From contig NZ_JABEKU010000002.1 of the NCBI RefSeq assembly GCF_013283665.1, forward strand, positions 1,920,863 through 1,984,862: 64,000 nt of DNA, read 5' to 3'. The DNA is from Ensifer sesbaniae. Lineage in GTDB: Bacteria; Pseudomonadota; Alphaproteobacteria; Rhizobiales; Rhizobiaceae. Below are positions 46,175-63,139 of this stretch, piece by piece (the first letter of the stretch is position 1; each line of letters starts with the position of its first letter). The position numbers and the translations under genes were made by a program. The notes below the pieces were generated by a model. That model saw only the letters and a program-made list of their open reading frames with translations, ran no database searches and was not told the origin of the DNA.

Positions 46175-46213
46175 AATAAAAACGTTTTTATTTTCCTTGA
46201 AAACGTTTTTATT
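46175..46213. promoter_or_regulatory. Paired LacI-type operators upstream of lacI-1
   Basis: AATAAAAACGTTTTTATT (46175-46192) is a perfect 18-base palindrome. A second site, GAAAACGTTTTTATT (46199-46213), follows, with its centre 21 bp from the first. The AAACG/CGTTT core is the one found before the sugar ABC and beta-galactosidase genes in this window. The pair lies 50-90 bases before the regulator, so lacI-1 is probably autoregulated. Confidence 0.85.
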
Positions 46214-46261
46214 GGCTGCTACGTCTAATCTCCAGGAAAGGCCGACGCCTGGGGAGGGTGC

Positions 46262-47326
46262 ATGGCGACTGAGATGCACAGGGCGCAGCGCGCGCCGACG
46301 CCGACGATCAAGACCTTGGCCGAGATGACCGGCTATTCCATCGCCACGATCTCGAAGGCGCTGCGTGAATCTCCCGTGGTCGCCCCGGCGACCCGTGACC
46401 TCATCTTCAAGGCGGCGCGTGAAGTCGGCTATCAGGCGAATGCGCGCGGCATGGCGCTTCGCACCGGCAAGAGCTTCCAAGCGGCGGTCCTGATGCCGGT
46501 GACCGCAGCGCGCGACTACGAATGGGACGGCGTCGAATATACGCAGACCTTGAGCGGCATCAGTCAGGCGCTTGAAGGTACGGATTATCGTATGTCGGTG
46601 CACGTCATCCGCGATGCCGCCGACGGCGCCGAAGCCGCACGCCGGATCGTCGATCAGGGACTGGCTGACGGGCTCATCTTCTCCGGCATTCTCGCGGAAG
46701 ATCCGCGGATCGATCTGCTCGTTGCCGAGCACTTCCCCTTCGTTTCGATGGGACGCTGCCGCAAGGATCTCGTCTACGCCCATGTCGACATCGACAACGA
46801 ATGGGCGGCGCATGCGGCGACCGCACGGCTGATTGCCGGCGGCCACAGGCGGATCGCGCTCGTCAACCCGGAGCGGCGGCTTTCCTATGCGCTCGACAGG
46901 GTGGACGGATTCGTCAGGGCCTTCCGCGAGGCGGGCCTCGATGCGCCGATGGAGCTGATCGCCGAAGGCGATCTCTCGACCCATTTCGGTCGGCAGACGG
47001 TGATCGCCTTCCTGCAGTTGGACGATGCCCCGACCGCTTTCGTCTGCATCAACGAATCCACCACGCTCGGCGTGCTTTCGGGCCTCGGCAGCCTCGGGCG
47101 CCAGGTCGGCGTCGACGTCGACGTCATCGCCTATGACGACATCAATGTCAGCGCCTATTTCACCCCGCCGATCACCACCTTCTACCAGCCGATCGAAGTG
47201 CTCGGCCGCACGCTCGGACAGTTCCTGCTACGGCGCATGGAGGGCGAGGACCCCAAGGCGTTGCGGCAGGTCTTCAGGCCGACACTGATCGCGCGCCAGC
47301 CCGACAATCTCGGCGGCCGCCTTTAA
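46262..47326 (+). CDS. LacI-family transcriptional regulator (lacI-1)
   Basis: A 354-residue regulator. The N-terminal HTH is PTIKTLAEMTGYSIATISKA at about residues 14-33, followed by the hinge and a periplasmic-binding-protein-like sensor domain (YEWDGVEYTQTLSGISQALE, GLIFSGILAEDPRID). It is a clear paralogue of the LacI protein at 59705, with near-identical recognition helices (SIATISKAL versus SIATVSKAL). A GGGGAGGG ribosome binding site precedes the ATG. It opens the operon with the amino-acid ABC importer. Confidence 0.93.
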   Translation: MATEMHRAQRAPTPTIKTLAEMTGYSIATISKALRESPVVAPATRDLIFKAAREVGYQANARGMALRTGKSFQAAVLMPVTAARDYEWDGVEYTQTLSGISQALEGTDYRMSVHVIRDAADGAEAARRIVDQGLADGLIFSGILAEDPRIDLLVAEHFPFVSMGRCRKDLVYAHVDIDNEWAAHAATARLIAGGHRRIALVNPERRLSYALDRVDGFVRAFREAGLDAPMELIAEGDLSTHFGRQTVIAFLQLDDAPTAFVCINESTTLGVLSGLGSLGRQVGVDVDVIAYDDINVSAYFTPPITTFYQPIEVLGRTLGQFLLRRMEGEDPKALRQVFRPTLIARQPDNLGGRL

Positions 47327-47351
47327 AGTTGATCATCCAAGGAGGAGAACC

Positions 47352-48098
47352 ATGAAAAGACTGATGATTGCCCTGGCCGTTGCGGCCCTTGCTTCGAGCG
47401 TTTCCCACGCCGCCGATCTCGGCGGTAAGCTTCTGAAGGTCGGCTCCGACACGACCTCGCCGCCAATGGAGAGCATTGATCCGACAACCGGACAGGTCGT
47501 CGGCTTCGACGTCGACGTGGTCAATGCCGTCTGCGCCAAGATCAACTGCCAGGCCGAATTCATCACCACCGGCTGGGACGGCATCTTCGCGGCCCTCGAC
47601 CAGGGCAATTTCGACCTCGTCGCATCGGGCGTCTCGATCACCGAGGAACGCAAGAAGGCGATGGACTTCTCCGATCCCTATATCGTCAACAGCCAGGCCG
47701 TGCTGATGCGGGTTGAAGATCAGGGCATCACCCTCGACCGCTTCAAGGACGCCGGCAGAAAGCTCTCCGCCCAAGCGAACACGACGGACGCGCAGGTTGC
47801 CGAGAGTGTCGTCGGCAAGGAGAATGTTGCCGCCTATGATACCTTCAGCGCCGCGATCATCGCGCTCAAGAACAAGGACGTCGACGGCGTCGTGATCAAC
47901 GGCGCCAACGCTGCCGCCTACGAACGCGAATTCGCCGGCGAACTCGTCGTTGCCATCAAGGACCTCGAATCAGATCCGCTCGGCCTCGTTTTCCGCAAGG
48001 GCGATGAAAACGTCGCGGCCTTCAACGAAGGCCTGAAGATGATCAAGGACGACGGCACGCTCGACCAGCTCATCAACAAGTATTGGGGCCTGAAATAA
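47352..48098 (+). CDS. Polar/basic amino-acid ABC transporter substrate-binding protein
   Basis: A 248-residue periplasmic binding protein of family 3. The signal peptide (MKRLMIALAVAALASSVSHA) is clear, and the fold-3 motif FDVDVVNAVCAKI, then GWDGIFAALDQGNFDLVASG and SITEERKKAMDFSDPYI, are typical. The ligand is probably an amino acid or amino alcohol; the context with a hydroxylysine-kinase-like enzyme suggests hydroxylysine or a similar compound, as inference. AAGGAGGAG precedes the ATG. A hairpin follows, as usual after highly expressed binding proteins. Confidence 0.93.
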   Translation: MKRLMIALAVAALASSVSHAADLGGKLLKVGSDTTSPPMESIDPTTGQVVGFDVDVVNAVCAKINCQAEFITTGWDGIFAALDQGNFDLVASGVSITEERKKAMDFSDPYIVNSQAVLMRVEDQGITLDRFKDAGRKLSAQANTTDAQVAESVVGKENVAAYDTFSAAIIALKNKDVDGVVINGANAAAYEREFAGELVVAIKDLESDPLGLVFRKGDENVAAFNEGLKMIKDDGTLDQLINKYWGLK

Positions 48099-48116
48099 GC
48101 GCGCAATGCCAATCGG

Positions 48117-48145
48117 ACCCGGAGTGCGCATCGCGCTCCGGGTCT
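48117..48145 (+). terminator. Hairpin after amino-acid binding protein gene
   Basis: GACCCGGAGTGC (48117-48128) pairs with GCGCTCCGGGTC (48134-48145) with one G-U pair. No T-run follows, so it probably stabilises the upstream mRNA end or attenuates the permease gene. Confidence 0.6.
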
Positions 48146-48178
48146 TCCGTCTGTTTGTCCATGCCCCCGGAGGAATGA

Positions 48179-49834
48179 ATGTCGTTCCTGAGAAGCGTGC
48201 GTCCGAGCAATCTGATCATCCTGACCGCGCTGCCTTTCATCATCTATCTCTTCATCTCCTCCGGCGACTACCAGCGCTCGCTCAAGGCGATCCTCGGCGT
48301 GGAAAACGGCTCCTCCGTCGTCGTGCCCGGTTTTCTGGCACTGGCAATCGCATTCTGCTCGGGCATTGCCGTGCTCATCTTTTCGCGCGCCAAGGCGCCG
48401 CGTCCGCGCCTGGCCAATCTGGCGGCGCTCCTCAATCTCGCTGCGGCCGCAGTGCTCGTCGTTGGCCACAACATCCATCCCTTCGTTGCCTCCGTCGTCG
48501 CCAACGGCGTCGATCCGTTCAAGTCGACGCTGATCGTCAAGGGTGTGACGCCCCGGCAACTGACCGAGGCGGCCGACCTTGTGGTGCGCGGCGTCGAGGC
48601 CTGGCTGTTTCCGAGCTATTTCGCTGTCACTGTGGTCGGACTTGGTCTCCATTTCCTGAGTAGTCGTTCCGATGCCTCTTCCGACGGAAAGGCGCGGCGT
48701 TTTGCCCGCTGGACCACCGGCCTCGTCAACGGCGCGGGTCTCGTCTTCGTCTTCTTTTTCGCCCATATCGCCTTTGCAGCAGGGGTCGCGACCACCATCC
48801 GCGCGGCTATCGCCGCCTATATCCTGGCGGCGCTGATGGGCCTCGTCTGGGTCGGGCTGCTGCAGCTCAGATCAACGGCCAGAACCAGCCTCTATTTCGC
48901 GCTTGCCACGCTGGTGCTGGCGCTCGCCTCGGGCTGGTTCCTGCTGCAGCCGCGCGACGCCTATGTGCTGGCGGGCACGCTGGACGGCAAGGTCGGCATC
49001 GTCACCAACACACCGGCGGGGCTGATCAGCGCCGTGCGCTTCGGCCAATACGATGGCGCCCCGCAGACGGAAACGCCGGTGCGCACCTTCGTCGGCCCGA
49101 CTGAGGCGCTCGCCTCGATCGCCAAGGGCGAAGGTGTATCCGCGGCCCTGCTGCCGGCGGCCTCCGCACCAACCAACATGCCGGTCCTCTGGAAAAGCGA
49201 AGCATTGAATGATGGCGATCGCGCCGCCGGCGTCACCATCGCCGTGCTTGCCATCATTCTCGGCCTCTTGAGCTTTGGCGGCTACCTGCATCAGCGCCAT
49301 CCGCTGGCGATCGGATCGGAATTCATCGTCGATACGATCCGCGGCATCCCGATGCTGGTGATCGTGCTCTATGTCGGCCTGCCTTTGAGCGGTGCACTGA
49401 AAGATGCGACGCAAGGCGTGCTCGACCCGCCAAACCTGATGCGCGGTATTGTCGCCATGGCGCTTGCCTATTCGGCCTATCTCGCCGAGATCTTCCGCTC
49501 GGGCATCAACGCCATACCGGTTGGCCAGATCGAGGCGGCGCGCAGCATCGGTCTCAACCGCTGGCAGACGGCGCGGCTCGTCGTATTGCCGCAGGCCTTC
49601 CGGATCATCATTCCGCCGCTCGGCAACGAGCTGATCGCGATCCTCAAGGATACGTCGCTGCTGTCGATCCTGTCGATCCGCGATATCACCCAGCGCATGC
49701 GCGAGTTCCAGTCGGCAAGCTTCCTGCCGTTTGCACCCTATAACTCGGCGGCGATCTTCTACATCTTCCTGACGCTGGCGGCGGCAAGCCTCGTTAACAT
49801 GATCGAGCGGAAATATGACATCAAGCACCGCTAG
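48179..49834 (+). CDS. Amino-acid ABC transporter permease with long N-terminal membrane extension
   Basis: A 551-residue permease, about twice the usual length. Residues about 345-551 form the normal HisM-type domain, with [18 protein letters not shown], the EAA loop in [20 protein letters not shown] and [20 protein letters not shown]. The first 270 residues hold about six to seven extra membrane segments, and about residues 275-340 form a soluble domain between spans that resembles part of a binding protein. GAGGA precedes the ATG. No cognate ATPase gene is in this operon. It overlaps the next gene by 20 bases. Confidence 0.85.
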
Positions 49835-50504
49835 ACCTCAGACGGTGCTGATTACAGGCACCTCCCGCGGACTCGGCGCCGAACTGGCGCGGATCTACAC
49901 CGCGGACGGCTGGCGGGTCATCGCGTGTCAGCGCGGGCCGGTCCCTCCAGATGCAAGGGATCGGTTGGCGCTCGACGTTACCGATCCTGCCTCGATTGAT
50001 GCGCTTGGACGGGCGCTCCAGGGCGTCGCGATCGACGTGCTGATCAACAACGCGGCCGTACGCGGCGACATTGGTGGCCTCGCGACACTCGATACGAAAG
50101 GCTTTCTCGATGTGATGCGGGTGAACGCGCTGGCGCCGCTGCTGGTGACGCGAGCGCTCCTTGCGAACCTGCGCGCCGGCGAGCGCCGGGTGGTCGCCAA
50201 CATCAGCAGCCGCGCCGGCTCGCTTGCCGAGGGCACGCTCGACGATGACGACGGCGACTATGCCTATCGCTGTTCGAAGGCAGCGCTGAACATGGCGACG
50301 GTCAAGCTTGCGCAGGACCTGAACAGCGACGGGATCTCCGTCGTCTCGCTGCATCCCGGCTGGGTGCAGACCGATATGGGCGGCAGCGAGGCCGTCGTTT
50401 CGGTCGCAGAGAGCGCGGCTGGACTGAAGGCGATCATCGACAAGACGGTTTTGACTGATAGCGGCAGCTTCCGCGCCTATGAAGGACGGCGGGTTTCGTG
50501 GTGA
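49815..50504 (+). CDS. Short-chain dehydrogenase/reductase
   Basis: A 229-residue SDR with [27 protein letters not shown], the catalytic serine in NISSRAGS, and [11 protein letters not shown]. Its C-terminal part is short, as in the C-factor-like group of SDRs. The start overlaps the permease end by 20 bases and its stop comes 15 bases before the fused kinase-phospholyase start, so it belongs firmly to the operon. It may reduce or oxidise the aldehyde made by the phospholyase, which is inference. Confidence 0.88.
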
Positions 50505-50518
50505 CAGGAACAGTGAAA

Positions 50519-53500
50519 ATGGCAGACAGAGATTTGAGAACCGAGCAGGAGTTGGCAACGATCCGCGGCTGGCTCAGCGAGACCTACGGCATCGAGACAA
50601 GCCTCTCGCCGCTGCCGGGTGAGCACGATCTCAATTATCGCGTCTCCGCTGCCGATGGCCAGGAGTTCCTTCTGAAGCTGCACGCAGCCGGCGACGCGAA
50701 TGAACTCGATATGCAGGTGGCGGTGCTCGAGCACCTCGCCGCCAAGGCGTCGGACCTGCCGATTTCCCGGGCCCTTCGCGACCGCTCTGGAGCCGTCACC
50801 AGCAAGATCGAACTTCGCGGCGCGCGTACGGCGCGGCTTCTCTCCTGGCTGCCCGGTGACATCTGGGCGAAGGCGCCGATGCGTAGCGCAGCCAGCGTGC
50901 AAAGCCTCGGGCACCTGCTGGCAGGCCTTGATCGCAGCCTGGAAGACTTTTCCCACGCCGGCGCCAAGCGGCTCTATGCCTGGGACATCGGCCGGGCCGA
51001 CATGCATCGCAAACCCGTCGAGCTGATCGATGGCACCGACAAGCGTGCGGCAGTCGACGCGATCCTCGATCATTTCACCTCGGCGGTTCTGCCGCGCCTT
51101 ACGACCTGCCCGATGCAGGTCATTCACAATGACGCCAATGACTACAACGTGCTGCTCGACGAGACGGGTCAGGTCAGCGGCCTGCTCGATTTCGGCGACA
51201 TGGTCGAGACCTGGCGCGTGATCGAAGTCGCCGTCGCCTCGGCCTATGCGCTGATCGGATCGGACGATCCGGTTGGGACCATCGCAGCGCTCGCCGGTGC
51301 TTACCATCAGGTCAATCGCTTGAGCGAAGCGGAAGTCGAACTGGTTTTCGATCTGGTGCTGACCCGTTACGCTGTCAGCATGTGCATGGCGGCCAAGCAG
51401 ATCCGCGAGAACCCCGAGAACACCTACCTGCTGGTCAGTCAGGAGGATGTCTGGCGCGAACTCAATCGCCTGCGGAGCGAGAACCGTAAGATCGCCGTGG
51501 CGCGCATCCGCGACGCCTGTGGCTTTGCGCCGATCCCGCAGGCGGCCGCGGTCGTCCGCTGGCTGGAAAAGAACGCCCATGACTTCGCATCGATCATACG
51601 GCCCTCGGTCAGCAAGCCGAAAGTGACGGTGCTCGATTTCTCCGCCTCCGGTCCGGAGGCTGCGCAATGGGCAAGCCTCGATGCGGCGGAGGCCGAGGCC
51701 AGGATCGCGGCTGAGATCGGCAGCGAACATGCCGCCTTCGGCATCGGTCGCTATGGCGAGGACCGCGGGATCTATCAGGGCGAGGCCTACGAAACGGCAG
51801 CGAAGGGCGCACGTCGGTCGGTGCATCTCGGCGTCGATATTTTCGCCCCGGCGGGCGAGCCGGTTTCCGCACCTTTTGCCGGCAAGGTTGCCTTCATTCA
51901 CGATGATGCTGTCGCCTATGGCTTTGGGCCGACCGTGTTGCTCGAACATGAGGTCGACAGCGGCGTGCACTTCTGGACGCTCTACGGTCACCTGTCGCGC
52001 GAAAGCGTCGCCAAGCTCTGCGAGGGGCAATCGATCGCCAAGGGCGAGGTCTTCGCCGCCTTCGGCACGGTCGCGGAGAACGGCAACTGGGCGCCGCACC
52101 TGCATTTCCAGATCGTCACCGACCATCTCGGCCTTGGCGGCCGCATGCATGGCGTCGGCGTGCGCGATCAATGGCAGGTGTGGCGCGAGGTGAGCCCGGA
52201 CCCGAGTGTCGTGCTTGGTCTCTCGGTGCCGGTGTCGGTGATCGTCGCGCGCGACAAGGCGTTCCTGGTGCGAGAGCGCCATCGCCGTATCGGCCGGTCG
52301 CTGAGCATCGCCTATAGCGCAGCACCGCTGAAGATCGTCAGCGGCGAGGGCGCGCATCTTATCGACGAGGAGGGGACGCGCTGGCTCGACATGGTCAACA
52401 ATGTCTGTCACGTCGGCCATTGCCACCCGCGCGTCGTCAAAGCCGCGCAGGCGCAGGTGCAGCGGCTGAACACCAATTCACGCTACCTGCACGATAGTCT
52501 GGTCGAATATTCCCGAAGGCTTGCCGCGCAGTTTCCGGATCCGCTGAATGTCTGCTTCTTCGTCAATTCCGGCAGCGAGGCGAATGACCTGGCGATCCGG
52601 CTGGCGCGTGCCTATACCGGTAACCGCGACATCATCACCGTCGATCACGCCTATCACGGCCATCTGTCGAGCCTGATCGACGTCAGCCCCTACAAGTTCG
52701 CCGGCAGGGGCGGGGAGGGGCAGAAGGCGCATGTGAAGGTCGCCGAGATGCCGGATCTCTACCGCGGGCGCTATCGCTACGGGGATGCGGATGCCGGCCG
52801 CAAATATGCTGAGGACGTCCGCAATCAGGTGGCAGCGCTTGCCGCCGATGGCCGCCGCCCGGCGCTGTTTTTCAGCGAGGGCATTCTTGGCACCGGCGGG
52901 CAGTTGACGCTGCCGGAAGGCTATTTGCGCGAGGCCTATGCGCATGTGCGCGCCGCCGGCGGCCTCTGCCTTGCCGACGAGGTGCAGGTGGGCTTCGGCC
53001 GCGTCGGTAGCCACATGTGGGCGCATGAACTGCAGGGCGTGGTGCCCGATATCGTCACCATGGGCAAACCGATCGGCAATGGCCATCCGATGGCGGCCGT
53101 CATGACGACGGAGGTAATCGCCGCCTCGTTTGCCAATGGCATGGAGTATTTCAACACCTTCGGCGGCAACCCGGTTTCGGCCGAGATCGGCCTTGCGGTG
53201 CTCGACGTCATCCGCGACGAACGGCTGATGCATCATTGCCGTGTGGTCGGCGACCGGTTGATGGATGGCGCGCGGGCGCTTGCCGGAAAGCATGCGATCG
53301 TCGGCGACGTCCGCGGCCACGGCCTCTTCAACGGCATCGAATTGGTGCGCGACCGCGAGACGCTGGAGCCGGCCGCGCGCGAACTGGACTTCGTCATCGC
53401 CGAGTTGAAGCGCAGGCACCACATTCTCTTGAGCAGCGAGGGGCCGCACCACAATGTGCTGAAGGTAAAGCCGCCGGCGCCCTTCAGCGCCGAGGATTGC

Positions 53501-53551
53501 GATTACTTCCTCAACGCTTTGGATGAGACGCTCGGGCGTCTAACGCCCTGA
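50519..53551 (+). CDS. Trifunctional fusion: hydroxylysine-kinase-like, M23-like, and ammonia-phospholyase-type class III aminotransferase
   Basis: A 1010-residue protein in three parts. Residues about 25-330 form an APH-type kinase closest in pattern to human hydroxylysine kinase: [10 protein letters not shown] (D205, N210), then [10 protein letters not shown] (D225). Residues about 430-535 form an M23-type fold with all zinc-site residues (H436, D440 in HLGVD; H491 in LYGHLS; HLH at 527-529) but no signal peptide. Residues about 585-1010 form a PLP enzyme strikingly like AGXT2L1/AGXT2L2 phospholyases: [55 protein letters not shown], and the PLP lysine K850 in [10 protein letters not shown]. 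It probably phosphorylates an amino alcohol and eliminates phosphate and ammonia to give an aldehyde. ATG 50519 with AGGAA upstream is preferred to GTG 50498. Confidence 0.9.
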
Positions 53552-53562
53552 CAGGAATGACC

Positions 53563-53590
53563 AAACGGTCGCCGTTCGGCGGCCGTTTTG
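53563..53590 (+). terminator. Probable terminator of the first LacI-controlled operon
   Basis: AAACGGTCGCC (53563-53573) pairs with GGCGGCCGTTT (53578-53588) over 11 bases with one G-U pair and a GTTC loop, followed by a short TTTTG. It lies 12 bases after the fusion gene stop. Confidence 0.7.
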
Positions 53591-53637
53591 ACCTTCGACA
53601 GCAAAATCTGATCAACGCGATTTTTTCCTTTACAAGA

Positions 53638-53676
53638 AAGTTAAACGTTTTTATCGTTCATATAAACGTTTAACAA
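53638..53676. promoter_or_regulatory. Paired LacI-type operators upstream of the sugar ABC operon
   Basis: Two AAACGTTT sites, AAGTTAAACGTTTTTATC (53638-53655) and CATATAAACGTTTAACAA (53659-53676), have centres exactly 21 bp apart, the same spacing as at 46175-46213. They lie 57-95 bases before the ATPase gene. Confidence 0.85.
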
Positions 53677-53732
53677 CGCGCATAGCTCATGCCATTGGCC
53701 TCTGCTAAGCGCTGGCCGGCAGGGAGGGCCCG

Positions 53733-54881
53733 TTGGCAGCGATCCGCATCGAAAATTTGCGCAAAGGCTTCGGTTCGCTCGAAGTCCTGAAGGGTATCAA
53801 CCTCGATATCGCCGATGGCGAGTTCGTCTGCTTCCTCGGCCCGTCGGGCTGTGGCAAGAGCACCCTGCTTCGCTCGATCGCCGGGCTCGAGGATCTGGAT
53901 GGCGGCTCCATCCACCTCGGCGAGCGCGACATCACCGAGGTGGCGTCGGCCAAGCGCGACATCGCCATGGTCTTCCAGAACTATGCGCTCTACCCGCATA
54001 TGAACGTGCGCAAGAACTTGTCTTTCGGTCTGGCGCTGAACGGCATGAAGCGCGACGAGATCGATCGCCGCGTCGAGAATGCCGCCGACATCCTGCGCAT
54101 CAAGGAACTGCTCGCCCGCAAGCCGCGCCAGCTATCCGGCGGCCAGCGCCAGCGCGTGGCGATCGGTCGTGCGATCGTGCGCGAACCAAAACTCTTCCTG
54201 CTCGACGAGCCGCTCTCGAACCTCGATGCGGGTCTCCGCGTCACCATGCGCGTCGAGCTTGCAGCCCTGCACGAGCGCCTGGGCGTCACGATGATCTACG
54301 TCACCCACGATCAGGTCGAGGCGATGACGCTCTCCGATCGTGTCGTGGTGCTCGACAAGGGCAAGGTCAGCCAGTTCGGCACCCCACTCGAACTCTTCTA
54401 CCAACCGGCCAACCTGTTCGTTGCCGGCTTCATCGGTTCGCCACGCATGAACTTCGTGACGACAGAAGTAACCGGGCAGGTCGACGCATCCGTGACGCTT
54501 GCCGGCGGTGGTCTCGCCCATCCGCTGACGCTCGAGATGCTTAACGCCGCGCCGATTGCCGGGGCAAAGTCGGTGACGCTCGGGATTCGTCCGGACAAGA
54601 TCGAGCTGGTTTCGGCTGAGGCGGGGCATCTCGTCGGCGACGTGCGCCTGGTCGAGCGGCTCGGAACAGAAAGCCATGTTCATATCAGCCTGCAAAACGG
54701 CGGCGACATGACCGCCGTCGTGCGCGGCACACACCCGGTTTCGGCGCGCGAGCGCGTGCATCTGCGCCTGCCGGCCGAGCACTGCCATCTGTTCGACGGC
54801 GATGGTCGGGCGGTCGCGCGACGGCTCGATGTCGAGACGCAGACGCTCATCAATCAGGAAAAGGCAAAGCGGGTCGCGTGA
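53733..54881 (+). CDS. Sugar ABC transporter ATP-binding protein (UgpC/MsmK type)
   Basis: A 382-residue ATPase of the sugar-importing CUT1 class. It has Walker A GPSGCGKST, signature LSGGQRQRVAIGRAIV, Walker B LFLLDEPLSNLDA, H-loop VTHDQVEAMTL, and the C-terminal TOBE-type regulatory domain (LGIRPDKIEL). The start is a TTG with AGGGAGGG eight bases upstream. As first gene of the sugar importer operon it is directly controlled by the paired operators. Confidence 0.93.
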   Translation: MAAIRIENLRKGFGSLEVLKGINLDIADGEFVCFLGPSGCGKSTLLRSIAGLEDLDGGSIHLGERDITEVASAKRDIAMVFQNYALYPHMNVRKNLSFGLALNGMKRDEIDRRVENAADILRIKELLARKPRQLSGGQRQRVAIGRAIVREPKLFLLDEPLSNLDAGLRVTMRVELAALHERLGVTMIYVTHDQVEAMTLSDRVVVLDKGKVSQFGTPLELFYQPANLFVAGFIGSPRMNFVTTEVTGQVDASVTLAGGGLAHPLTLEMLNAAPIAGAKSVTLGIRPDKIELVSAEAGHLVGDVRLVERLGTESHVHISLQNGGDMTAVVRGTHPVSARERVHLRLPAEHCHLFDGDGRAVARRLDVETQTLINQEKAKRVA

Positions 54882-54901
54882 CCCGAATGAGGAGGAGAAG
54901 C

Positions 54902-56131
54902 ATGCTCAACAGGAAGTCGATCATCGGCTCGCTGATGGTTCTGGCAATGGCCGGAACCACGACAGCCCGGGCAGAAGAAGTACTGCGTTTTGCAACCTGG
55001 GATACCGACGAAAGCCTGGCGATCCAGCAGGATATCGCCAAGAAGTTCGAGGAGAAGCACCCGGGCGTGAAGGTCCAGGTCGAGCCCTACGCGGATGGCT
55101 ACGATCAGAAGTTGATTGCCGCCTTCGGCGCCGGCAATCCGCCGGATGTGATGTATATGTGGAACTTCCCGCAATACTACACGTCGCTGAAGCCGCTGGA
55201 CGATCTGATCGCCAAGGACGCGGCCGAGATCAAGCCGGACGATTTCCCGAAGGGCCTGATGAATACGACGCGCGTCGAGGGCAAGACCTACGGCATGCCG
55301 TCGGGCTTCACCACGCAAGTTGTCTTCTACAACAAGGACATGTTCGCCAAGGCCGGCATTGAGGAGCCAAAGGACGGCTGGACCTGGGACGATCTGCGCG
55401 CCAAGGCGGCCAAGTTCCGCGACGAGCCGAACAAGGTCTATGGCTTCGCCGTCGACGCCAAGCCGGATCCTTACGACTTCGAGCAGTTCCTCTGGTCGAA
55501 CGGTACCAAATACATCTCCGACGACGGCAAAGAGATCGACGGCTACATGAACAGCGATGCGGCCGCGCAGGTGCTCGACATGTTCGCCGACATGGCCAAA
55601 AAGCAGGAAGCGATCACGCTGAACCTCGGCGACGACACATCAGGCAGCACGCTCTTCAAGGGCGGCAAGATCGCCATGTTCCAGAGCGCCATGTGGTCGA
55701 AGTCCGGCATCGATCAGTCGGGCATCAAGTATGGCGTGGCACCACTGCCGAGGTTCGGCGACAAGACGGCCCATTCGGCGCTCGGCGTTTCGGCGATCTC
55801 GATCGCCAAGGATGCGGCCCATCCGGACCTCGCCTGGGAGTTCGTCAAGTTCTTCTCCTCGCCCGAAGCCGTCGCCATGCGCGTCAACGATCTGCCGGTG
55901 CGCACCAGCGTCGCCGAAGAGAAGGGCATGATCAAGGACCCAATCTACAAGCCCTTCTTCGACATTCTCGCCACCTCGAACACCGAGATCCATGCGTTCC
56001 TGAAGAACGCCAACTGGGGCAAGGTCCAGGACAATCTCGCCCGCGCAATTGAAGCAACGATGATCGATCAGGGCAACGCCAAGCAGCATCTCGACGATGC
56101 GGTCAACCGCTCCAAGCGTCTGATCAAGTAA
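54902..56131 (+). CDS. Sugar ABC transporter substrate-binding protein (family 1)
   Basis: A 409-residue periplasmic binding protein for carbohydrates. The signal peptide follows MLNRKS and ends near TARAEE. Conserved parts include KFEEKHPGVKVQVEPYADGY, FGAGNPPDVMYMWNFP and YGMPSGFTTQVVFYNKDMFA. A GAGGAGGAG tract lies just before ATG 54902. The many aromatic residues fit a mono- to trisaccharide or glycoside ligand. Next genes are two membrane subunits and a glycosidase. Confidence 0.93.
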   Translation: MLNRKSIIGSLMVLAMAGTTTARAEEVLRFATWDTDESLAIQQDIAKKFEEKHPGVKVQVEPYADGYDQKLIAAFGAGNPPDVMYMWNFPQYYTSLKPLDDLIAKDAAEIKPDDFPKGLMNTTRVEGKTYGMPSGFTTQVVFYNKDMFAKAGIEEPKDGWTWDDLRAKAAKFRDEPNKVYGFAVDAKPDPYDFEQFLWSNGTKYISDDGKEIDGYMNSDAAAQVLDMFADMAKKQEAITLNLGDDTSGSTLFKGGKIAMFQSAMWSKSGIDQSGIKYGVAPLPRFGDKTAHSALGVSAISIAKDAAHPDLAWEFVKFFSSPEAVAMRVNDLPVRTSVAEEKGMIKDPIYKPFFDILATSNTEIHAFLKNANWGKVQDNLARAIEATMIDQGNAKQHLDDAVNRSKRLIK

Positions 56132-56150
56132 GCGAAGGGAGTATGGGGAG

Positions 56151-57107
56151 ATGGATATGACCTATGCCGGTGCAGAGCCAAAGGTGGCAAGGCGCAAGCG
56201 CTCCGCCATCGCGCGCTATGCGGCGCCCTACCTGTTCATCTCCCCGTGGATCCTCGGGTTCCTGTTCTTCACGCTCGGCCCGCTCGTCTTCTCACTGACG
56301 ATGAGTTTCTACGACTGGCCGGTCGTCGGCGTGCGCAGCTTCGTCGGCCTCGACAACTACCGCTCCATGCTCTTCGAGGACCCGCAGTTTTGGGAGAGCC
56401 TCTGGATCACGGTGAAGTTTGCAGCGATCTACGTGCCGTTCAACATCGTCATGTCGTTCCTGCTGGCGCTGATGCTGCACCATATCACCTTCGCCAGCGG
56501 CTTCTTCCGCACCGCTTTCTATCTGCCGAGCGTCATTTCCGGCGTGGCCCTCGTGACGATCTGGAGCTGGATCTACAGCAAGGAATACGGCCTCCTGAAC
56601 TTCATGCTCTCCTTCGTCGGCATCAAGGGGCCGAACTGGCTCGGCGATCCGAACCTGGCGATCGTCGCGATCATCATCGCCAGCCTCTGGGGGCTTGGCG
56701 GCACGATGCTGATCCTCCTGACCGGCCTCAAGGCGATCCCGAAGGAACTCTATGAGGCGGCGACGGTTTCCGGCGTTCCTGGCTGGGCGCAGACGCTGTT
56801 CATCACGCTCCCGATGCTCGGGCCGATGCTGCTCTTCACCTTTATCACCTCGATCATCTCCGCCTTCCAGCAACTGACGATCGCGCTGCTTCTGACCAAG
56901 GGCGGACCGCTCGGCTCCACCTATTTCTTCGCCATGTATATCTACGACAACGCCTTCAAATACTTTGACATGGGCTACGCCGCCGCCGGCTCTTGGGTGA
57001 TGTTCATCATCGTCCTTCTGCTCAGCATCGCCGTCATGCGCTGGTCGGCCGCCTGGGTCTATTACGAAGGCGAAGTCCGCCAGAACGATGGAGAGCACAA
57101 TGCGTAA
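56151..57107 (+). CDS. Sugar ABC transporter permease (MalF type)
   Basis: A 318-residue CUT1 permease with six membrane spans. The first span is APYLFISPWILGFLFFTLGP and the EAA motif near residue 205 is YEAATVSGVPGWAQTLFITL. It begins 20 bases after the binding-protein gene and overlaps the second permease by eight bases. Confidence 0.93.
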   Translation: MDMTYAGAEPKVARRKRSAIARYAAPYLFISPWILGFLFFTLGPLVFSLTMSFYDWPVVGVRSFVGLDNYRSMLFEDPQFWESLWITVKFAAIYVPFNIVMSFLLALMLHHITFASGFFRTAFYLPSVISGVALVTIWSWIYSKEYGLLNFMLSFVGIKGPNWLGDPNLAIVAIIIASLWGLGGTMLILLTGLKAIPKELYEAATVSGVPGWAQTLFITLPMLGPMLLFTFITSIISAFQQLTIALLLTKGGPLGSTYFFAMYIYDNAFKYFDMGYAAAGSWVMFIIVLLLSIAVMRWSAAWVYYEGEVRQNDGEHNA

Positions 57108-57912
57108 GACGGTGCTCTATTCCGCGCTCATCCTGCTCTCGGCGCTGTTCATTGCGCCGTTCTACTGGACCTTCATGACGGCGATCAAAAGCACCGCCGA
57201 ACTCTACCAGTTTCCGCCGGTCTTCTGGCCGTCGGAATGGCATTGGGAAAACTTTGCCGCCGCCTGGAACAAGCAGCCCTTCGGCACCTATCTCGCCAAC
57301 TCGGTGATCGTCGTGGTGCTGTCGACGATCGGCCAGCTCATATCCTCGTCGCTCGTCGCCTATGGCTTTGCCCGCTTCCGCTTCCCCGGCCGCGACCCGC
57401 TGTTCATCCTGCTGCTCGCCACCATGATGATCCCGTGGGACGTGAAGATGATCCCGCTCTACATGGAGTTCAACCTTCTTGGCTGGATCAACACGCTGAA
57501 GCCGTTGATCGTGCCGGCCTACTTTGCCGACGCCTTCTTCGTCTTTCTTCTGCGCCAGTACATCATGACCGTGCCGATGGAGATCGATGAGGCAGCGCGC
57601 ATGGACGGCGCCAATGCCTTCGACATCTACTGGCGCATCCACCTGCCGTTGATGATGCCGGCGCTGGTGCTGGTCGGCACCTTCCACTTCATGAACGCCT
57701 GGAACGACTATCTCGGCCCTTTGATCTTCCTGAACGACCAATCGAAGTACACGCTGACGCTCGGCCTCTCCATGTTCAAGGGCCTGCACGAGGTGGACGT
57801 GACATCAATCGCCGCGATCACCGTCATCCTCTGCCTGCCGCCGCTGGCACTCTTCTTCGTCGCCCAGCGCTACATCATGGATGGCGCGGTCAGCTCGTCG
57901 GTGAAGGGATAG
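57100..57912 (+). CDS. Sugar ABC transporter permease (MalG type)
   Basis: A 270-residue permease with six spans, starting MRKTVLYSALILLSALFIAP. The EAA loop is EIDEAARMDGANAFDIYWRI, followed by HLPLMMPALVLVGTFHFMNAWNDY in two adjacent pieces. ATG 57100 is preferred because a GGAGAG lies before it; ATG 57088 would add four residues. The gene ends four bases before the glycosidase gene. Confidence 0.93.
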   Translation: MRKTVLYSALILLSALFIAPFYWTFMTAIKSTAELYQFPPVFWPSEWHWENFAAAWNKQPFGTYLANSVIVVVLSTIGQLISSSLVAYGFARFRFPGRDPLFILLLATMMIPWDVKMIPLYMEFNLLGWINTLKPLIVPAYFADAFFVFLLRQYIMTVPMEIDEAARMDGANAFDIYWRIHLPLMMPALVLVGTFHFMNAWNDYLGPLIFLNDQSKYTLTLGLSMFKGLHEVDVTSIAAITVILCLPPLALFFVAQRYIMDGAVSSSVKG

Positions 57913-57916
57913 CGGC

Positions 57917-59620
57917 ATGCTGTTCGATATCAACTACGTCCCCTTCAGCCGTAGGGGCCGGTTCCTGACGCTCTCGATGATGCGGGTACCGGGCCGCGAT
58001 GGCGAGCGGGCGCTTTATCTGCGCCACGTTGCCGGTGGCGACGAGCGGCCCTCGCTCGGTCGCCTCTGCCGCGTCGAATTTCTCGATGCGGAGGGCAAGA
58101 CCGCGACGCCCGAGCCGGTGCTTTCCCCGGAGCGGCTCGACGCCCGCATCGGCGAGGGTATGGTCAGCTTCGTCATCGGCGAAGGAGAAAGGCTGCACAT
58201 ATCCGGCAAGCAGGCCGGCGTCCGCTTCCATTTGGAGGGCTCGCGCTACGACTATGTCTACCGCACGCCCAAGGGCGAGGATTGCCTCGTTGCTGCGGTC
58301 GAGAACGTCAAGTTCATCCCTCGGGCGATCACTGGGGAATTGAAGGTCACGGGCGCCTGGCAGCGCGATCATTCCGAAGACGTGTCCTTTTCCTTTTCAG
58401 CGCCCGACGTCTTCGAGGGCAATGTGGACTTTTTCCGCACCGTGCCACCTGTCGATCGGCCCGGCCGTTTCGCGGAGGCGCTGTCCGGCGCAACGTCCGA
58501 GTTTGCTGAATGGTACGCGCGCGTTCCGAAGGGCGTTCGCGGCCAGGAAGAGGCGCATCGGCTGGCGAGCTATCTGCTCTGGGCGAATGGCGTGCCGGCG
58601 GGCGGCGCGCTGACGCGGCCGGCGATCTACATGTCCAAGAACCACATGATCAACATCTGGAGCTGGGACAACGCCTTCTCAGCCCTTGGTGTCGCCGCCT
58701 TCGATCAGGACCTCGCCTTCGACCAGTTCGCGGCGATCTTCGACCATCAGGACGCCTCGGGTCTGCTGCCGGACTATATCAACGACCGCGACGTGCTCTA
58801 CGCTTTCACCAAGCCGCCTGTGCATGGCTGGGCGGTGTCGCTGATCGCGGCTGCCGAGCCAGGCTTCCTCACGGCAGAGCGCAAGTGTTATCTGCGTGAT
58901 GCCGTTGGCCGCCAGGTCGATTACTGGCTGACCTATGGGCGCAAGGATGCGAAGAGCCTGCCGTCCTATTTCCATGGCAATGACAGCGGCTGGGACAATG
59001 CGACCTTCTTTGCCGAAGGCGGCCCGGTGATTTCGCCGGACCTGCCGGTTTTCCTGATCCTTGCCTGCGAGACGCTGGCGGACCTGCTGGAGGACGACGC
59101 AGAACGCCAGACGATGTGGCGGCAAAAAGCGGACGAGTTGCAGGCGCTGCTGTTCGAGCGGCTGTGGGCCGGCGAAACTTTTGGCGCGCGCTTGGCGCAA
59201 GCCCCGGAGCGCGTTTTGCCCGGAAACAATCTCATCCAGTTCATGCCACTGCTCTTGGGCGCGCGACTGACACCCGACATGCGCGAAAAGCTCGTGGTTC
59301 GTCTCGTCGCCGGCGGCTTCATTACCGAATGGGGACCGGCGACCGAGAGCCCGCAGAGTTCCTTCTACGAGGACGACGGCTACTGGCGCGGGCCGATCTG
59401 GGCGCCGACGACGCTGCTTCTCTGGGATGGTCTGCGCCGACAAGGGAAGATTGAGCTTGCGTATGCGGTTGCGGAAAAGTTCTGTTCACTTGCAAGCAAA
59501 AGCGGTATGGCCGAAAACTTCGATGCGCGCTCGGGGAAGGGCCTTCGCGATCGGGCATTCGCCTGGACATCCGCAGTCTATCTCGTGCTGGCGGCATCGC
59601 TCAGCATGAGGGCGGGGTGA
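57917..59620 (+). CDS. GH63/MGH1-like (alpha/alpha)6-barrel glycosidase
   Basis: A 567-residue intracellular glycosidase with no signal peptide. Residues 1-190 form a beta-sandwich domain. Residues about 190-567 form the barrel, with the candidate general acid D251 in NIWSWDNAF and the candidate base E485 in FYEDDGYWRGPIWAPTTLLL. HGNDSGWDNAT and AFAWTSAVYL are also typical. GH63 and relatives hydrolyse alpha-glucosidic bonds in small glycosides (processing glucosidase I, glucosylglycerate or mannosylglycerate hydrolases). An AAGGG lies before the ATG. It follows the sugar importer, so it should cleave the imported glycoside. Its exact family and linkage are uncertain. Confidence 0.8.
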   Translation: MLFDINYVPFSRRGRFLTLSMMRVPGRDGERALYLRHVAGGDERPSLGRLCRVEFLDAEGKTATPEPVLSPERLDARIGEGMVSFVIGEGERLHISGKQAGVRFHLEGSRYDYVYRTPKGEDCLVAAVENVKFIPRAITGELKVTGAWQRDHSEDVSFSFSAPDVFEGNVDFFRTVPPVDRPGRFAEALSGATSEFAEWYARVPKGVRGQEEAHRLASYLLWANGVPAGGALTRPAIYMSKNHMINIWSWDNAFSALGVAAFDQDLAFDQFAAIFDHQDASGLLPDYINDRDVLYAFTKPPVHGWAVSLIAAAEPGFLTAERKCYLRDAVGRQVDYWLTYGRKDAKSLPSYFHGNDSGWDNATFFAEGGPVISPDLPVFLILACETLADLLEDDAERQTMWRQKADELQALLFERLWAGETFGARLAQAPERVLPGNNLIQFMPLLLGARLTPDMREKLVVRLVAGGFITEWGPATESPQSSFYEDDGYWRGPIWAPTTLLLWDGLRRQGKIELAYAVAEKFCSLASKSGMAENFDARSGKGLRDRAFAWTSAVYLVLAASLSMRAG

Positions 59621-59704
59621 CGAAAAGTGGTTGCGTTTTTCCGACACACCCCTCTCCAACTTATCATAATCGTGATCTAACAAACCGTGACGAGTCGAGA
59701 CGCA

Positions 59705-60739
59705 ATGCAGAGACCGACGATCAAGACCATCGCGCAGGAGACGGGGCTTTCCATCGCCACCGTTTCCAAGGCCCTGAAGCATTCGCCTCAGGTTCGCCCG
59801 GAAACGCGCGCGATCGTGATCGCGGCGGCGACACGCGTCGGCTATGAACTGAACATGCATGGCGTGCAACTGCGCACCGGCAAGACCTATCAGGTCGCCG
59901 CGATCATGACGGCGCCGGGCCCGAAGCAGAACGATTGGGAAGGCGTCGAATACGCCCAGCTCTTGAGCGGTATTTCCTGGGCGCTGGAAGACAGCCCCTA
60001 TCGCGTCTCGCTCTATGCCGTCCGGAATTTCGAAGAAAGCCAGGCGGTCATCAAGCAGATCGTGTCATTGAAGAAGGCCGACGGCATCATCATCTCAGGC
60101 ACGCGCGCCGACGATCCGCGCATCCGCACCATGCAGGCGGCGGACTTCCCCTTCGTCACCTACGGCACCAGCATCCACAACGCACCGCATGCCTATGTCG
60201 ATGCCGACAACGAGCAGATGATCCGGGTGTCGATGGCACGGCTGATCGAGCGCGGCCACCGCCGGATTGCTTTGCTCAACCCGCTCTCGGACCTGAGCTA
60301 CGGTATCACGCGGCTGGAAGCCTACAAACACGCCCTGGAGGCGGCGGGGCTTCCCTATGATCCGGCGCTCGTTGCCCATGGCCGGCTGACGCCAGCCTTC
60401 GGTCGGGAGAACGTGCTGACGATGTCGGAACTCAGCGATGCGCCGACCGCCTATATCTGCGCCAACGAAGCCTCCGCGCTCGGTGCCTTCTCGGGCTTCC
60501 ATGAGCGCGGACTGGTGCATGGGCGTGACGCCGTGATCAATGCCACCGACGATCTCAATGTCAGCCAATATTTCGCGCCGCCGATCACCACCTACTACCT
60601 GCCGATCAGCGAACCGAGCAGCCTGCTCGGCGCCTACATCCTGAGGCGCATGGAAGGTGAACCGCCGGAGGCGCTGCAAACGCTCCTGATGCCCGATCTG
60701 ATCGAGCGCTGCGACGATCGCTTGAATCCGAACCGTTGA
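59705..60739 (+). CDS. LacI-family transcriptional regulator (lacI-2)
   Basis: A 344-residue LacI protein starting MQRPTIKTIAQETGLSIATV with the HTH at the extreme N terminus, followed by a sensor domain with WEGVEYAQLLSGISWALEDS. It is a close paralogue of lacI-1 at 46262 along its whole length (TGKTYQVA versus TGKSFQAA, DDLNVSQYFAPPITTYYLPI versus DDINVSAYFTPPITTFYQPI). An upstream GTG at 59687 is less likely. No AAACGTTT site lies directly before it, so it is read through from the sugar operon or from a weak local promoter. Confidence 0.92.
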   Translation: MQRPTIKTIAQETGLSIATVSKALKHSPQVRPETRAIVIAAATRVGYELNMHGVQLRTGKTYQVAAIMTAPGPKQNDWEGVEYAQLLSGISWALEDSPYRVSLYAVRNFEESQAVIKQIVSLKKADGIIISGTRADDPRIRTMQAADFPFVTYGTSIHNAPHAYVDADNEQMIRVSMARLIERGHRRIALLNPLSDLSYGITRLEAYKHALEAAGLPYDPALVAHGRLTPAFGRENVLTMSELSDAPTAYICANEASALGAFSGFHERGLVHGRDAVINATDDLNVSQYFAPPITTYYLPISEPSSLLGAYILRRMEGEPPEALQTLLMPDLIERCDDRLNPNR

Positions 60740-60779
60740 TGGAACCGTGGTCCGGAAGGGCCGCTCACTCATGCTTCAG

Positions 60780-60797
60780 AATATAAACGTTTATATT
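60780..60797. promoter_or_regulatory. Single LacI-type operator upstream of the beta-galactosidase gene
   Basis: AATATAAACGTTTATATT is a perfect 18-base palindrome with the same AAACGTTT core as the paired sites at 46.2 and 53.6 kb. It lies 44 bases before the beta-galactosidase start. Confidence 0.85.
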
Positions 60798-60841
60798 TGG
60801 GCGCCAGACAAACCCCAGGCCGGACCCAACCGGCCGAGAGA

Positions 60842-62872
60842 ATGACGAAGGACCGACCCGTGCACATGCCCTTGACGAGATCGAACCGCTTCAACGCCAA
60901 AGAGCAGCAGACGGACATGCTGGAACTCGGCGTCTGCTACTATCCGGAGCAGTGGCCACGCGAGAAATGGGAAGAGGACGCCCGCCGCATGGTCGAGCTC
61001 GGCCTTGCCTGGGTGCGCATCGGTGAATTCGCCTGGGCGAAGATTGAGCCGCGGCCGGGCGAGTTCCATTGGGCGTGGCTGGATGATGCCATCGACGTGC
61101 TCGGCAATGCCGGCCTCAAGGTGATCTTGGGAACGCCGACCGCCGCGCCACCGAAGTGGCTGATCGATCGCTATCCCGACATTCTGCCCGTCGACGCCAA
61201 GGGTGTGGTGCGCAAGTTCGGCGCTCGTCGTCACTATTGCTTTTCCAGTCGCCGCTATCGCATCGAGGCGGCGCGCATCTCCGAAGCCATGGCCGAGCGC
61301 TACGGCAAGAATGCCTTCGTGCACGCCTGGCAGACGGACAACGAGTACGGCGACCACGACACGATCTACAGCTATTCCGACGAGGCGCTGCGCGCCTTTC
61401 GTGAGTGGCTGGCTGAGCGCTACGGCACCGTCGAGGAACTGAACCGCGCCTGGGGCACGGCCTTCTGGGCGATGAACTATCTGAGCTTCGACGAGGTCGA
61501 TCTTCCGAACAATCTCGTGGAGGAGCCGAGCCCGACCCATATCGTCGATTACATCCGCTTCTCTTCAGACCAGGTGAAAAGCTTCAACAAGGCGCAGGTC
61601 GACATCATCCGCAAGCATTCGCCGGGCCGTCCGGTGACGCACAACTTCATGTCGCAGAATACCGACTTCGACCACTACAAGGTCGGCGAGGATATCGATA
61701 TCGCGTCCTGGGACGTCTATCCGATGGGCGGGTTGTTGAACGGCCGTCTGTCGTCGGAAGACAAGGGCCGCTACCTCCGCGTCGGCGATCCGGACCAGCC
61801 GGCCTTCAACCACGATCTCTACCGTGCCGTCGGCAATGGTCGCGTCTGGGTGATGGAGCAGCAACCGGGTCCGGTGAACTGGGCGTCGCACAACCAGTCG
61901 CCGGCCGACGGCATGGTGCGGCTGTGGACCTGGCTCGCCTATGCCCATGGCGTCGACATGGTCTCTTATTTCCGCTGGCGCCAGGTGCCGTTTGCGCAGG
62001 AACAATTCCATGCCGGACTGCTCTTGCCAAACAGTGAGGCGGATCAGGGCTATCTCGAAGTCGCGCAGGTGGCAGAAGAGTTGAAGCGGCTTCCCAAGGG
62101 GGAACGCCGCCAGAAGGCCAAGGTCGCGATCCTGCTCGATTACAATTCGCGCTGGGCGACACGCGCGCTGCCGCAGGGACGCACCTACCTGGCGTCGGCA
62201 ATCGCGCTCGACTGGTACTCGACCGTTGCCCGCCTCGGCGTCGACGTCGATTTCATCGGCCAGCATTCGGACCTCGAAGGCTACCGCCTTGTGCTCGCGC
62301 CCGACCTTGTGATCCCCGATCAGGCTTTCGTTCAGAAGCTTGCCGCGTCGGGCGCCAGGGTGCTGTTCGGTCCGCGCAGCGGCAGCAAGACCAGGGATAT
62401 GCACATTCCGGAGGGCCTGCCGCCGGGTCCGCTCGCCTCGCTGATCGACCTCAGCGTGTCACGGGTCGAGTCACTGCCGGAATTTCACGGCGAGAGCGTG
62501 CTCTATGGCAACGAGACCTATCCGGCTGGCGTCTGGCGCGAGACCGTCAGGACGAGCGAGATCGTGCTCGCGACCTTTGAAGGCGACTATCGCAACGGCG
62601 CGCCGGCGCTCGTCGGCAACGACAAGGCGCGCTATCTCGCAACCGGCGCCCGCGGCGAACTGCTGAAGAAGGTGATCGGCGATGCGCTGGGCTGGGCCTC
62701 GGTCGAGGCGCTGGCCGACCTCGGTGACCTGCGCATCACCCGCCGCGGCAAGCTCACCTTCGCCTTCAACTACGGCAAGACGGCCGTGGACGTGCCGGCG
62801 CCTGCCAACGCGACCTTCCATGTCGGCGGCCGCAAGCTTGGCCCCGTCGATGTCGCGATCTGGTCGGAGTAA
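60842..62872 (+). CDS. GH42 beta-galactosidase
   Basis: A 676-residue intracellular beta-galactosidase. The acid/base glutamate is E168 in HAWQTDNEYG and the nucleophile glutamate lies in VWVMEQQPGPVNW; LGVCYYPEQWPREKWEEDAR marks the first strand, and a trimerisation domain follows after about residue 420. There is no signal peptide, so it acts on imported galactosides. Starts at 60866 and 60917 are also possible; the last places the family's LGVCYYPEQW motif only four residues from the N terminus. The gene is preceded by a perfect AAACGTTT palindrome. Confidence 0.94.
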   Translation: MTKDRPVHMPLTRSNRFNAKEQQTDMLELGVCYYPEQWPREKWEEDARRMVELGLAWVRIGEFAWAKIEPRPGEFHWAWLDDAIDVLGNAGLKVILGTPTAAPPKWLIDRYPDILPVDAKGVVRKFGARRHYCFSSRRYRIEAARISEAMAERYGKNAFVHAWQTDNEYGDHDTIYSYSDEALRAFREWLAERYGTVEELNRAWGTAFWAMNYLSFDEVDLPNNLVEEPSPTHIVDYIRFSSDQVKSFNKAQVDIIRKHSPGRPVTHNFMSQNTDFDHYKVGEDIDIASWDVYPMGGLLNGRLSSEDKGRYLRVGDPDQPAFNHDLYRAVGNGRVWVMEQQPGPVNWASHNQSPADGMVRLWTWLAYAHGVDMVSYFRWRQVPFAQEQFHAGLLLPNSEADQGYLEVAQVAEELKRLPKGERRQKAKVAILLDYNSRWATRALPQGRTYLASAIALDWYSTVARLGVDVDFIGQHSDLEGYRLVLAPDLVIPDQAFVQKLAASGARVLFGPRSGSKTRDMHIPEGLPPGPLASLIDLSVSRVESLPEFHGESVLYGNETYPAGVWRETVRTSEIVLATFEGDYRNGAPALVGNDKARYLATGARGELLKKVIGDALGWASVEALADLGDLRITRRGKLTFAFNYGKTAVDVPAPANATFHVGGRKLGPVDVAIWSE

Positions 62873-63132
62873 TCGGCAAGCGGGAAGGCGCCCGTTTCCA
62901 AACGATATCGCTTGTCACAGCGCGCATTGGTCCAGCTGCGCGCTGTGAGCGCGCGTGCACGGAAGGAGTCATTTATTCCGAAAGAACAAGAGCGACGCAC
63001 CGCAGCTCGAAATGCGGTGCCTAAAAAGCGAGCTGCATGCACCTGAAGAGCCAAAGCTGAGGCTGCATCTCCCGCAAGCCTTTGAAAATGCGGTTATATG
63101 AGATTGGCACAGGCTTTGCATTCCTGTCTTGT
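62873..63132. other. Intergenic region before the GntR gene
   Basis: These 260 bases hold no gene. A CTTG-TATG-CAAG inverted repeat follows at 63128-63139. Confidence 0.4.
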
Positions 63133-63139
63133 ATGCAAG
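63128..63139. promoter_or_regulatory. CTTG-N4-CAAG inverted repeat, candidate GntR operator
   Basis: CTTGTATGCAAG has perfect 4-base arms and resembles operators of FadR/GntR-type regulators (TTGTATACAA-like). It overlaps the ATG at 63133. If it is a true operator, autorepression of a leaderless or short-leader transcript, or a start at 63088, would follow. Confidence 0.4.

Follow-up and report, generated by a model that had tools for sequence, protein, structure and literature searches.

The 64,000-nt window analysed here, part of contig 2 of the five-contig, 6.9-Mb genome of Ensifer sesbaniae, carries a locus that is probably a salvage regulon for the glycosylated hydroxylysine of animal collagen. 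The locus joins two importers, two glycosidases and a kinase/M23/phospholyase fusion with intact catalytic residues; its operators are conserved in relatives, and the linkage of fusion and glycosidases recurs in two phyla. These genes lie on the + strand. The first unit encodes LacI1, SBP3, a 551-aa permease, a short-chain dehydrogenase (SDR) and the 1017-aa fusion. MalK, SBP_bac_1, two permeases, a GH63-like (PF22422) enzyme and LacI2 come next, and GH42 then follows.

From this arrangement we infer the substrates, the order of the reactions, their cellular location, the inducer, repressor binding and a preference for hydroxylysine over other amino alcohols. The sugar importer (SBP_bac_1, permeases P1 and P2, and MalK) would take up Glc(alpha1-2)Gal(beta)-hydroxylysine, and the SBP3 importer would take up galactosyl-hydroxylysine or hydroxylysine. 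In the cytoplasm, the GH63-like enzyme would strip glucose and GH42 would strip galactose. The kinase domain of the fusion would phosphorylate 5-hydroxylysine, and the phospholyase domain would free phosphate and ammonia to give 2-aminoadipate semialdehyde, which would enter lysine catabolism. These last two steps are proposed because of the mammalian hydroxylysine kinase (HYKK) and 5-phosphohydroxylysine phospho-lyase (PHYKPL), reportedly described by Veiga-da-Cunha in 2012. LacI1 and LacI2 would repress the three promoters through the common AAACGTTT operator and release them in response to a glycoside or sugar signal.

Operators and the predicted regulon

The core AAACGTTT occurs six times in the window (46180, 46201, 53643, 53664, 60785 and 38003) against 0.50 expected, and 0 of 100 shuffles reached six. 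The site at 38003 was set aside as a regulon operator because of its GC-rich flanks. The other five precede three units. One pair, AATAAAAACGTTTTTATT and TTGAAAACGTTTTTATT (46175..46213), which is kept in relatives, stands before the LacI1/importer operon with the kinase-phospholyase; a second pair, TTAAACGTTTTTATC and ATATAAACGTTTAAC (53638..53676), stands before the sugar-importer operon with the GH63-like gene; and a single site, ATATAAACGTTTATAT (60779..60798), stands before GH42. The spacing is 21 bases in both pairs, and AAAACGTTTT and TAAACGTTTA are operator forms of the predicted LacI regulon. The GH42 gene (60842..62872, +) is also open from the listed TTG start at 60797, 5 bases past the last base of the operator core; judged from the sequence, the in-frame ATG at 60842 is the likelier start. 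A GntR-FCD regulator gene (63082-63882) lies downstream of GH42.

Across the 6.9-Mb genome, WAAACGTTTW has 8 sites, 5 of which fall inside this 14.6 kb, and the backwards control pattern has 12. WAAACGTTTW is thus not enriched genome-wide, and the unusual feature is its clustering here. Outside the locus, site C4:228419 falls within an open reading frame (ORF), and the sites on C1 and C2 fall at or before the starts of other LacI genes, so the core motif by itself is insufficient to define the regulon.

For the predicted operators, conservation in relatives is stronger evidence than the counts in the window or the genome. The three operator places are identical across Ensifer/Sinorhizobium. 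An exact operator precedes LacI1 in 17/20 loci (the misses are L015, L028 and L031, with a one-mismatch operator instead in L028 and L031), and an exact pair precedes SBP3 in all seven Rhizobium-type loci without an adjacent LacI1. The pair upstream of MalK is exact in 16/18 loci, with L030 and L054 truncated by the locus edge, and the operator upstream of GH42 is exact in 21/23 (none in L030, one mismatch in L080). A chance origin of the operators was rejected on the shuffles, the clustering in the genome and this upkeep in relatives, all of which confirm the observation of the original prediction that one operator type stands before three units.

The original prediction had also assumed a single LacI. 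The shared operator is consistent with a LacI-controlled regulon, and the window proves to hold two paralogous LacI genes, LacI1 (46262..47326, +; Pfam LacI and Peripla_BP_3) and LacI2 (59687..60739, +). A rearranged block in six Rhizobium loci (L011, L016, L022, L030, L054 and L057, including R. freirei, R. tropici, R. lusitanum and R. miluonense) bears on how the units are controlled. Its order is LacI2, operators, SBP3-permease-SDR-fusion and GH42, with MalK to GH63 upstream of LacI2 where kept. Operators are present at the importer promoter in 6/6 and before GH42 in 5/6 (absent in L030). No LacI1 orthologue was found in these six genomes, where the best match in every case is LacI2 (46-47%); LacI1 identity was 64-74% in four other genomes of the same search. 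The simplest reading is that a single LacI acts on these promoters in the six rearranged Rhizobium genomes. Since these genomes lack LacI1 and keep the operators, the units likely form one regulon.

The fusion protein, the importers and the glycosidases

The fusion (50498..53551, +) is a full-length member of NCBIfam PRK06148, matching over residues 15-1013 with 1364.5 bits against a cut-off of 1128. Its nearest named relative is from Sinorhizobium chiapasense (94.7% identical), followed by Ensifer adhaerens-type strains (89-90%), and the S. meliloti 1021 counterpart lies at pSymB 1203430-1206378. SMb20973 of S. meliloti, a table row in one paper, is presumably this fusion. The APH-type kinase domain (residues 38-270; 50609..51307) carries Asp212, Asn217, Asp231, Gly233 and Asp234 in 144/144 fusions and His210 in 129/144. 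The class III PLP domain (residues 610-1011; 52325..53530) retains Lys857 in 144/144. Its best PDB matches are human ETNPPL 6tor (483 bits) and then the 5g4i phospholyase (307 bits). Between the two lies an M23 domain (residues 442-541; 51821..52120), whose zinc ligands His443, Asp447, His534 and His536 (HxxxD, HxH) are kept in 144/144 fusions from many phyla. It is conceivable, if rather unlikely, that the fusion is a three-step hydroxylysine machine in which M23 releases hydroxylysine or glycosyl-hydroxylysine from collagen peptides taken up by the cell (e.g. by cutting the Hyl-Gly bond) and passes it to the kinase and phospholyase. Were this so, the fusion family would serve as a marker, so far unrecognised, of the recycling of collagen residues in a wide range of bacteria.

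The same genome encodes a second fusion at C3:352061-355105 (region L194, G000:C3:343600-363400), which is 43% identical to that of the window. It belongs to a second type of fusion (type 2), among whose members an AsnC/Lrp-like gene stands opposite in 11 loci, one of which was tested with Pfam, and an amino-acid binding protein occurs in 5 loci.

The importer genes of the first unit encode SBP3 (47352..48098, +), a family-3 solute-binding protein of the amino-acid type, and an amino-acid ATP-binding cassette (ABC) permease (48179..49834, +), in which BPD_transp covers residues 359-546 only; the SDR gene follows (49815..50504, +). In family-3 binding proteins, an Arg at the position of SBP3 Arg100 binds the carboxylate, a group that ethanolamine lacks; Arg100 is present in 26/26 orthologues. 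The predicted SBP3 structure has a mean pLDDT of 59. Beside the fusion of L211, Pfam finds an amino-acid binding protein and two permeases, and an ATPase-like match adjoins them.

The sugar-importer operon encodes a MalK-type ABC ATPase (53733..54881), the SBP_bac_1 sugar-binding protein (54878..56131), two sugar ABC permeases (56151..57107 and 57088..57912) and the 567-aa GH63-like glycosidase (57917..59620), all on the + strand. The GH63-like label holds in part: PF22422 scores 153.8 bits and the predicted fold is nearest to E. coli YgjK, whereas PF03200 (GH63) reaches 21.6 bits, below its cut-off of 22.4. An alignment of 14 sequences, including three from Bacteroidota, shows Asp360 and Glu533 unchanged throughout, and the predicted fold together with this catalytic Asp/Glu places the enzyme in the MGH1-like/YgjK group of PF22422. 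A YgjK PDB entry contains Glc-alpha1,2-Gal, which is the collagen disaccharide. GH65 does not appear in the Pfam result for this enzyme; no search aimed at GH65 beside the fusions was made. The GH42 protein, a beta-galactosidase by family, contains three GH42 domains (E 6e-156, 7.9e-44 and 4.9e-9).

Linkage in two phyla and alternative readings

The counts of glycosidase neighbours come from five queries, one each for GH42, GH1 and GH2 and two for GH63-like enzymes; in many loci the flanks are short. A permease was called near-complete at identity of at least 52% and coverage of at least 61%, which gave 28 loci, including L080 and L081. A beta-glycosidase stands beside the importer in 28/28 of them, GH42 in 23 (only its first part, at a contig end, in L013) and GH1 in five (L020, L028, L031, L193 and L195; confirmed by Pfam in L028). 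GH1 and GH42 are unrelated families, which argues for replacement rather than shared descent. Among 151 relatives, the window-type fusion (identity of at least 69%) occurs in 17 genomes and the GH63-like enzyme (E <= 1e-60) in 16, each with a window-type fusion about 4.4 kb away. In two Rhizobium genomes, GH63-like remnants adjoin LacI2 (L229 6876-7094; L230 6710-6880). The neighbours of the window-type fusions in the Roseibium loci L017 and L018 are a permease fragment and a sugar ABC importer, together with genes for a GFO/IDH/MocA dehydrogenase and for sugar isomerases of the AP_endonuc_2 type (by Pfam in L017), and resemble those of oxidative glycoside breakdown.

By the criterion of NF004799 at E <= 1e-250, the fusion is present in 38/395 Bacteroidota genomes, 27 of which exceed the family cut-off. 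In L168 and L071, it is flanked by a PF22422 enzyme on one side and a LacZ-type GH2 beta-galactosidase on the other, and SusC/SusD-like genes were recognised by eye close by. L180 has GH2 with the fusion. L065 has the PF22422 enzyme with the fusion, and its contig ends just past the fusion, inside an ORF whose start resembles the GH2 of L071. In 10/38 genomes against 0.30 expected (P 2.5e-13), a gene of the Pro_racemase family is found no more than 10 kb from the fusion, accompanied by D-amino-acid-oxidase-type and mostly DHDPS-type genes, and the family occurs in 32/38 fusion genomes versus 66/357 others (P 4e-16); both values ignore kinship. Two of these genes (L078 and L182) were tested and match the 4-hydroxyproline epimerase PRK13971 (599 and 581 bits; cut-off 376). 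In a tree made by a fast method, which has many long branches and lacks L037, L071, L078 and some others (identical copies merged), the hydroxyproline label must have changed at least twice, and L182, which carries it, is the sister of L168, which has the glycosidases.

A neighbour tally was made over 68 regions (L152-L219: 36 Bacteroidota, 4 further Bacteroidota and 28 Rhizobiales), from 124 of 126 chosen same-strand ORFs in 58/68 regions. Among the 25 commonest of 71 families, aminopeptidase-P-type M24/AMP_N (8), D-amino-acid-oxidase-type DAO (7), Pro_racemase (6), DHDPS (6), SBP_bac_3 (5) and galactokinase (5) lead, ahead of the metallo-beta-lactamase fold (4), SSF transporters (3) and PF22422 (2). 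Galactokinase lies close to the fusion in 5 of the 68 regions, and an M24 gene of the aminopeptidase P type in eight loci. The leading families suit collagen residues. The substrate that the original prediction had inferred, glucosyl-galactosyl-hydroxylysine, thus gains support from the 28/28 beta-glycosidase linkage, L071 and L168, the 4-hydroxyproline epimerase, galactokinase and the YgjK match.

A number of observations weigh against the collagen-glycoside reading. The amino-acid importer operon (47352-50504) yielded no gene for an ABC ATPase. SBP3 has Asn183 (47898-47900) in 26/26 orthologues, where AncQR and ArtJ have Asp, the residue that binds the alpha-amino group in family-3 binding proteins. 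The predicted GH63-like model is weak around the catalytic Asp360, the relatives of PF22422 include glucosylglycerate and mannosylglycerate hydrolases, and the nearest solved phospholyase (6tor) is an ethanolamine-phosphate enzyme. The linkage also has gaps. Permease fragments (10-19% coverage) beside the window-type fusions L017 and L018, and distant permeases (29-40% identity) in L040, L202 and L211, all outside the 28 loci, have no glycosidase match, and the SDR-fusion locus L021 has no GH match across the 10 kb downstream, the side that is covered. All 16 GH63-like genomes among the 151 relatives belong to one genus and so count as one evolutionary event. The search of the order found the fusion in 28/397 genomes; of the 28 Rhizobiales regions examined, only L193 and L195 gave a glycosidase match. 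In Gellertiella, module A (with GH1) and module B (GH63-LacI2-GH42, with the operator pair) are on separate contigs. GH63-like has no match in the L057 genome, while L011 retains about 7% of its length and L022 a 73-residue remnant. In Bacteroidota, a PF22422 enzyme is present anywhere in 8/38 fusion genomes and beside the fusion in only one (G208, L168). The original prediction took regular occurrence of the fusion operon without glycosidase genes and without the shared operator as evidence against itself, and on this count it is contradicted in part. The fusion alone is mostly found without glycosidases: any searched glycosidase accompanies it in 26/79 loci and 5/68 later regions, and none does in 53/79 and 63/68. 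The importer operon, where its permease is near-complete, comes with one in 28/28 loci. The fusion therefore probably serves hydroxylysine in general, the glycoside modules being optional additions made in Rhizobiaceae.

Because the modules are separable, a galactosyl-hydroxylysine route that dispenses with the glucosidase is plausible. The same holds for the rival that Ensifer has two pathways side by side under similar LacI regulators, module A being an importer operon for beta-galactosyl or free hydroxylysine and module B a separate pathway for alpha-glucosyl-galactosides. The separate contigs of Gellertiella favour this rival, as do Rhizobium G472 and G539, which carry module A with GH1 and have no GH63 match, and the two LacI genes of Ensifer. 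A further two LacI genes of the genome likewise carry AAACGTTT at or before their starts (the palindrome is seen in L220 and L221, where both genes adjoin sugar ABC importers). Against it, the six rearranged Rhizobium genomes keep one LacI, with GH42 following the fusion behind the same operator in 5/6, and the contiguity of GH63-like enzyme, fusion and GH2 recurs in Bacteroidota. On balance, we consider two independent pathways improbable.

It is the gene context that would favour hydroxylysine over ethanolamine. A glycoside of ethanolamine, 1-amino-2-propanol or another small amino alcohol appears still less probable as the substrate, in spite of the ETNPPL match. The tally is led by amino-acid and sugar families (aminopeptidase P, D-amino-acid-oxidase-type, Pro_racemase, DHDPS, amino-acid binding and galactokinase), and no ethanolamine-specific family is present in the 25 commonest of 71; ethanolamine was put aside as the substrate on this tally. 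The 26/26 conservation of SBP3 Arg100, with its carboxylate role, and the AsnC/Lrp-like genes opposite the type-2 fusion in 11 loci also speak against a small amino alcohol. That the fusion substrate differs by lineage (e.g. hydroxyectoine-derived in gammaproteobacteria), so that the Bacteroidota collagen context would not transfer to Ensifer, is very improbable: the window fusion shares only about 37-46% identity with those of Bacteroidota and only 43% with the second fusion of its own genome, and gammaproteobacterial L066 lies amid ectoine-degradation-like genes (by eye), but the glycosidase association appears in both lineages and the type-2 fusion of G472 and G539, 44-45% identical to that of the window, adjoins a LacI1-SBP3-permease-GH1-SDR unit.

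Relation to known systems

Few animal proteins are more common than collagen, whose glucosyl-galactosyl-hydroxylysine is excreted and reaches soil and sea. No title among the literature matches listed, which mostly lie outside subscription journals, describes a bacterial hydroxylysine-glycoside pathway, and breakdown was found described in animals only. If the salvage reading is true, the locus would provide a bacterial route for this collagen waste product, a substrate for an NCBI 'hypothetical protein' fusion family and a bacterial alpha-glucosidase for the collagen disaccharide outside GH65, and it would tie Sinorhizobium meliloti and other root-nodule bacteria to animal residues. The claim is open to tests in a laboratory strain.

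Mammalian HYKK and PHYKPL, with ETNPPL, likewise comprise an APH-type kinase and a class III PLP phospholyase. In contrast, the window has both domains in one chain, with M23 between them, and sets them in a predicted regulon with importers and glycosidases. Human PGGHG (GH65) is the glucosidase for Glc-alpha1,2-Gal-hydroxylysine, the vertebrate step, and a bacterial GH65 alpha-1,2-glucosidase acts on kojibiose (PMC8626586, PMC8537180). The proposed reaction of the window enzyme is the same as that of PGGHG, but the window enzyme is PF22422/GH63-like and PGGHG is GH65. E. coli YgjK (GH63), Thermus MGH and Mycolicibacterium GgH are about 20% identical to the window enzyme, which has its own N-terminal part. 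A bone study describes a hydroxyproline/collagen cluster of marine Colwellia with 4-hydroxyproline epimerase, dehydrogenase and deaminase (PMC7883544). That cluster shares collagen-residue genes with the present loci; it has an M9 collagenase, and 'hydroxylys' occurs 0 times in the main text (PMC7883544). Finally, NCBIfam PRK06148 and PRK06149 (hypothetical protein/aminotransferase) are named without a substrate; the window fusion is a full-length PRK06148 protein, and glycosylated hydroxylysine is proposed here as the source of its substrate.

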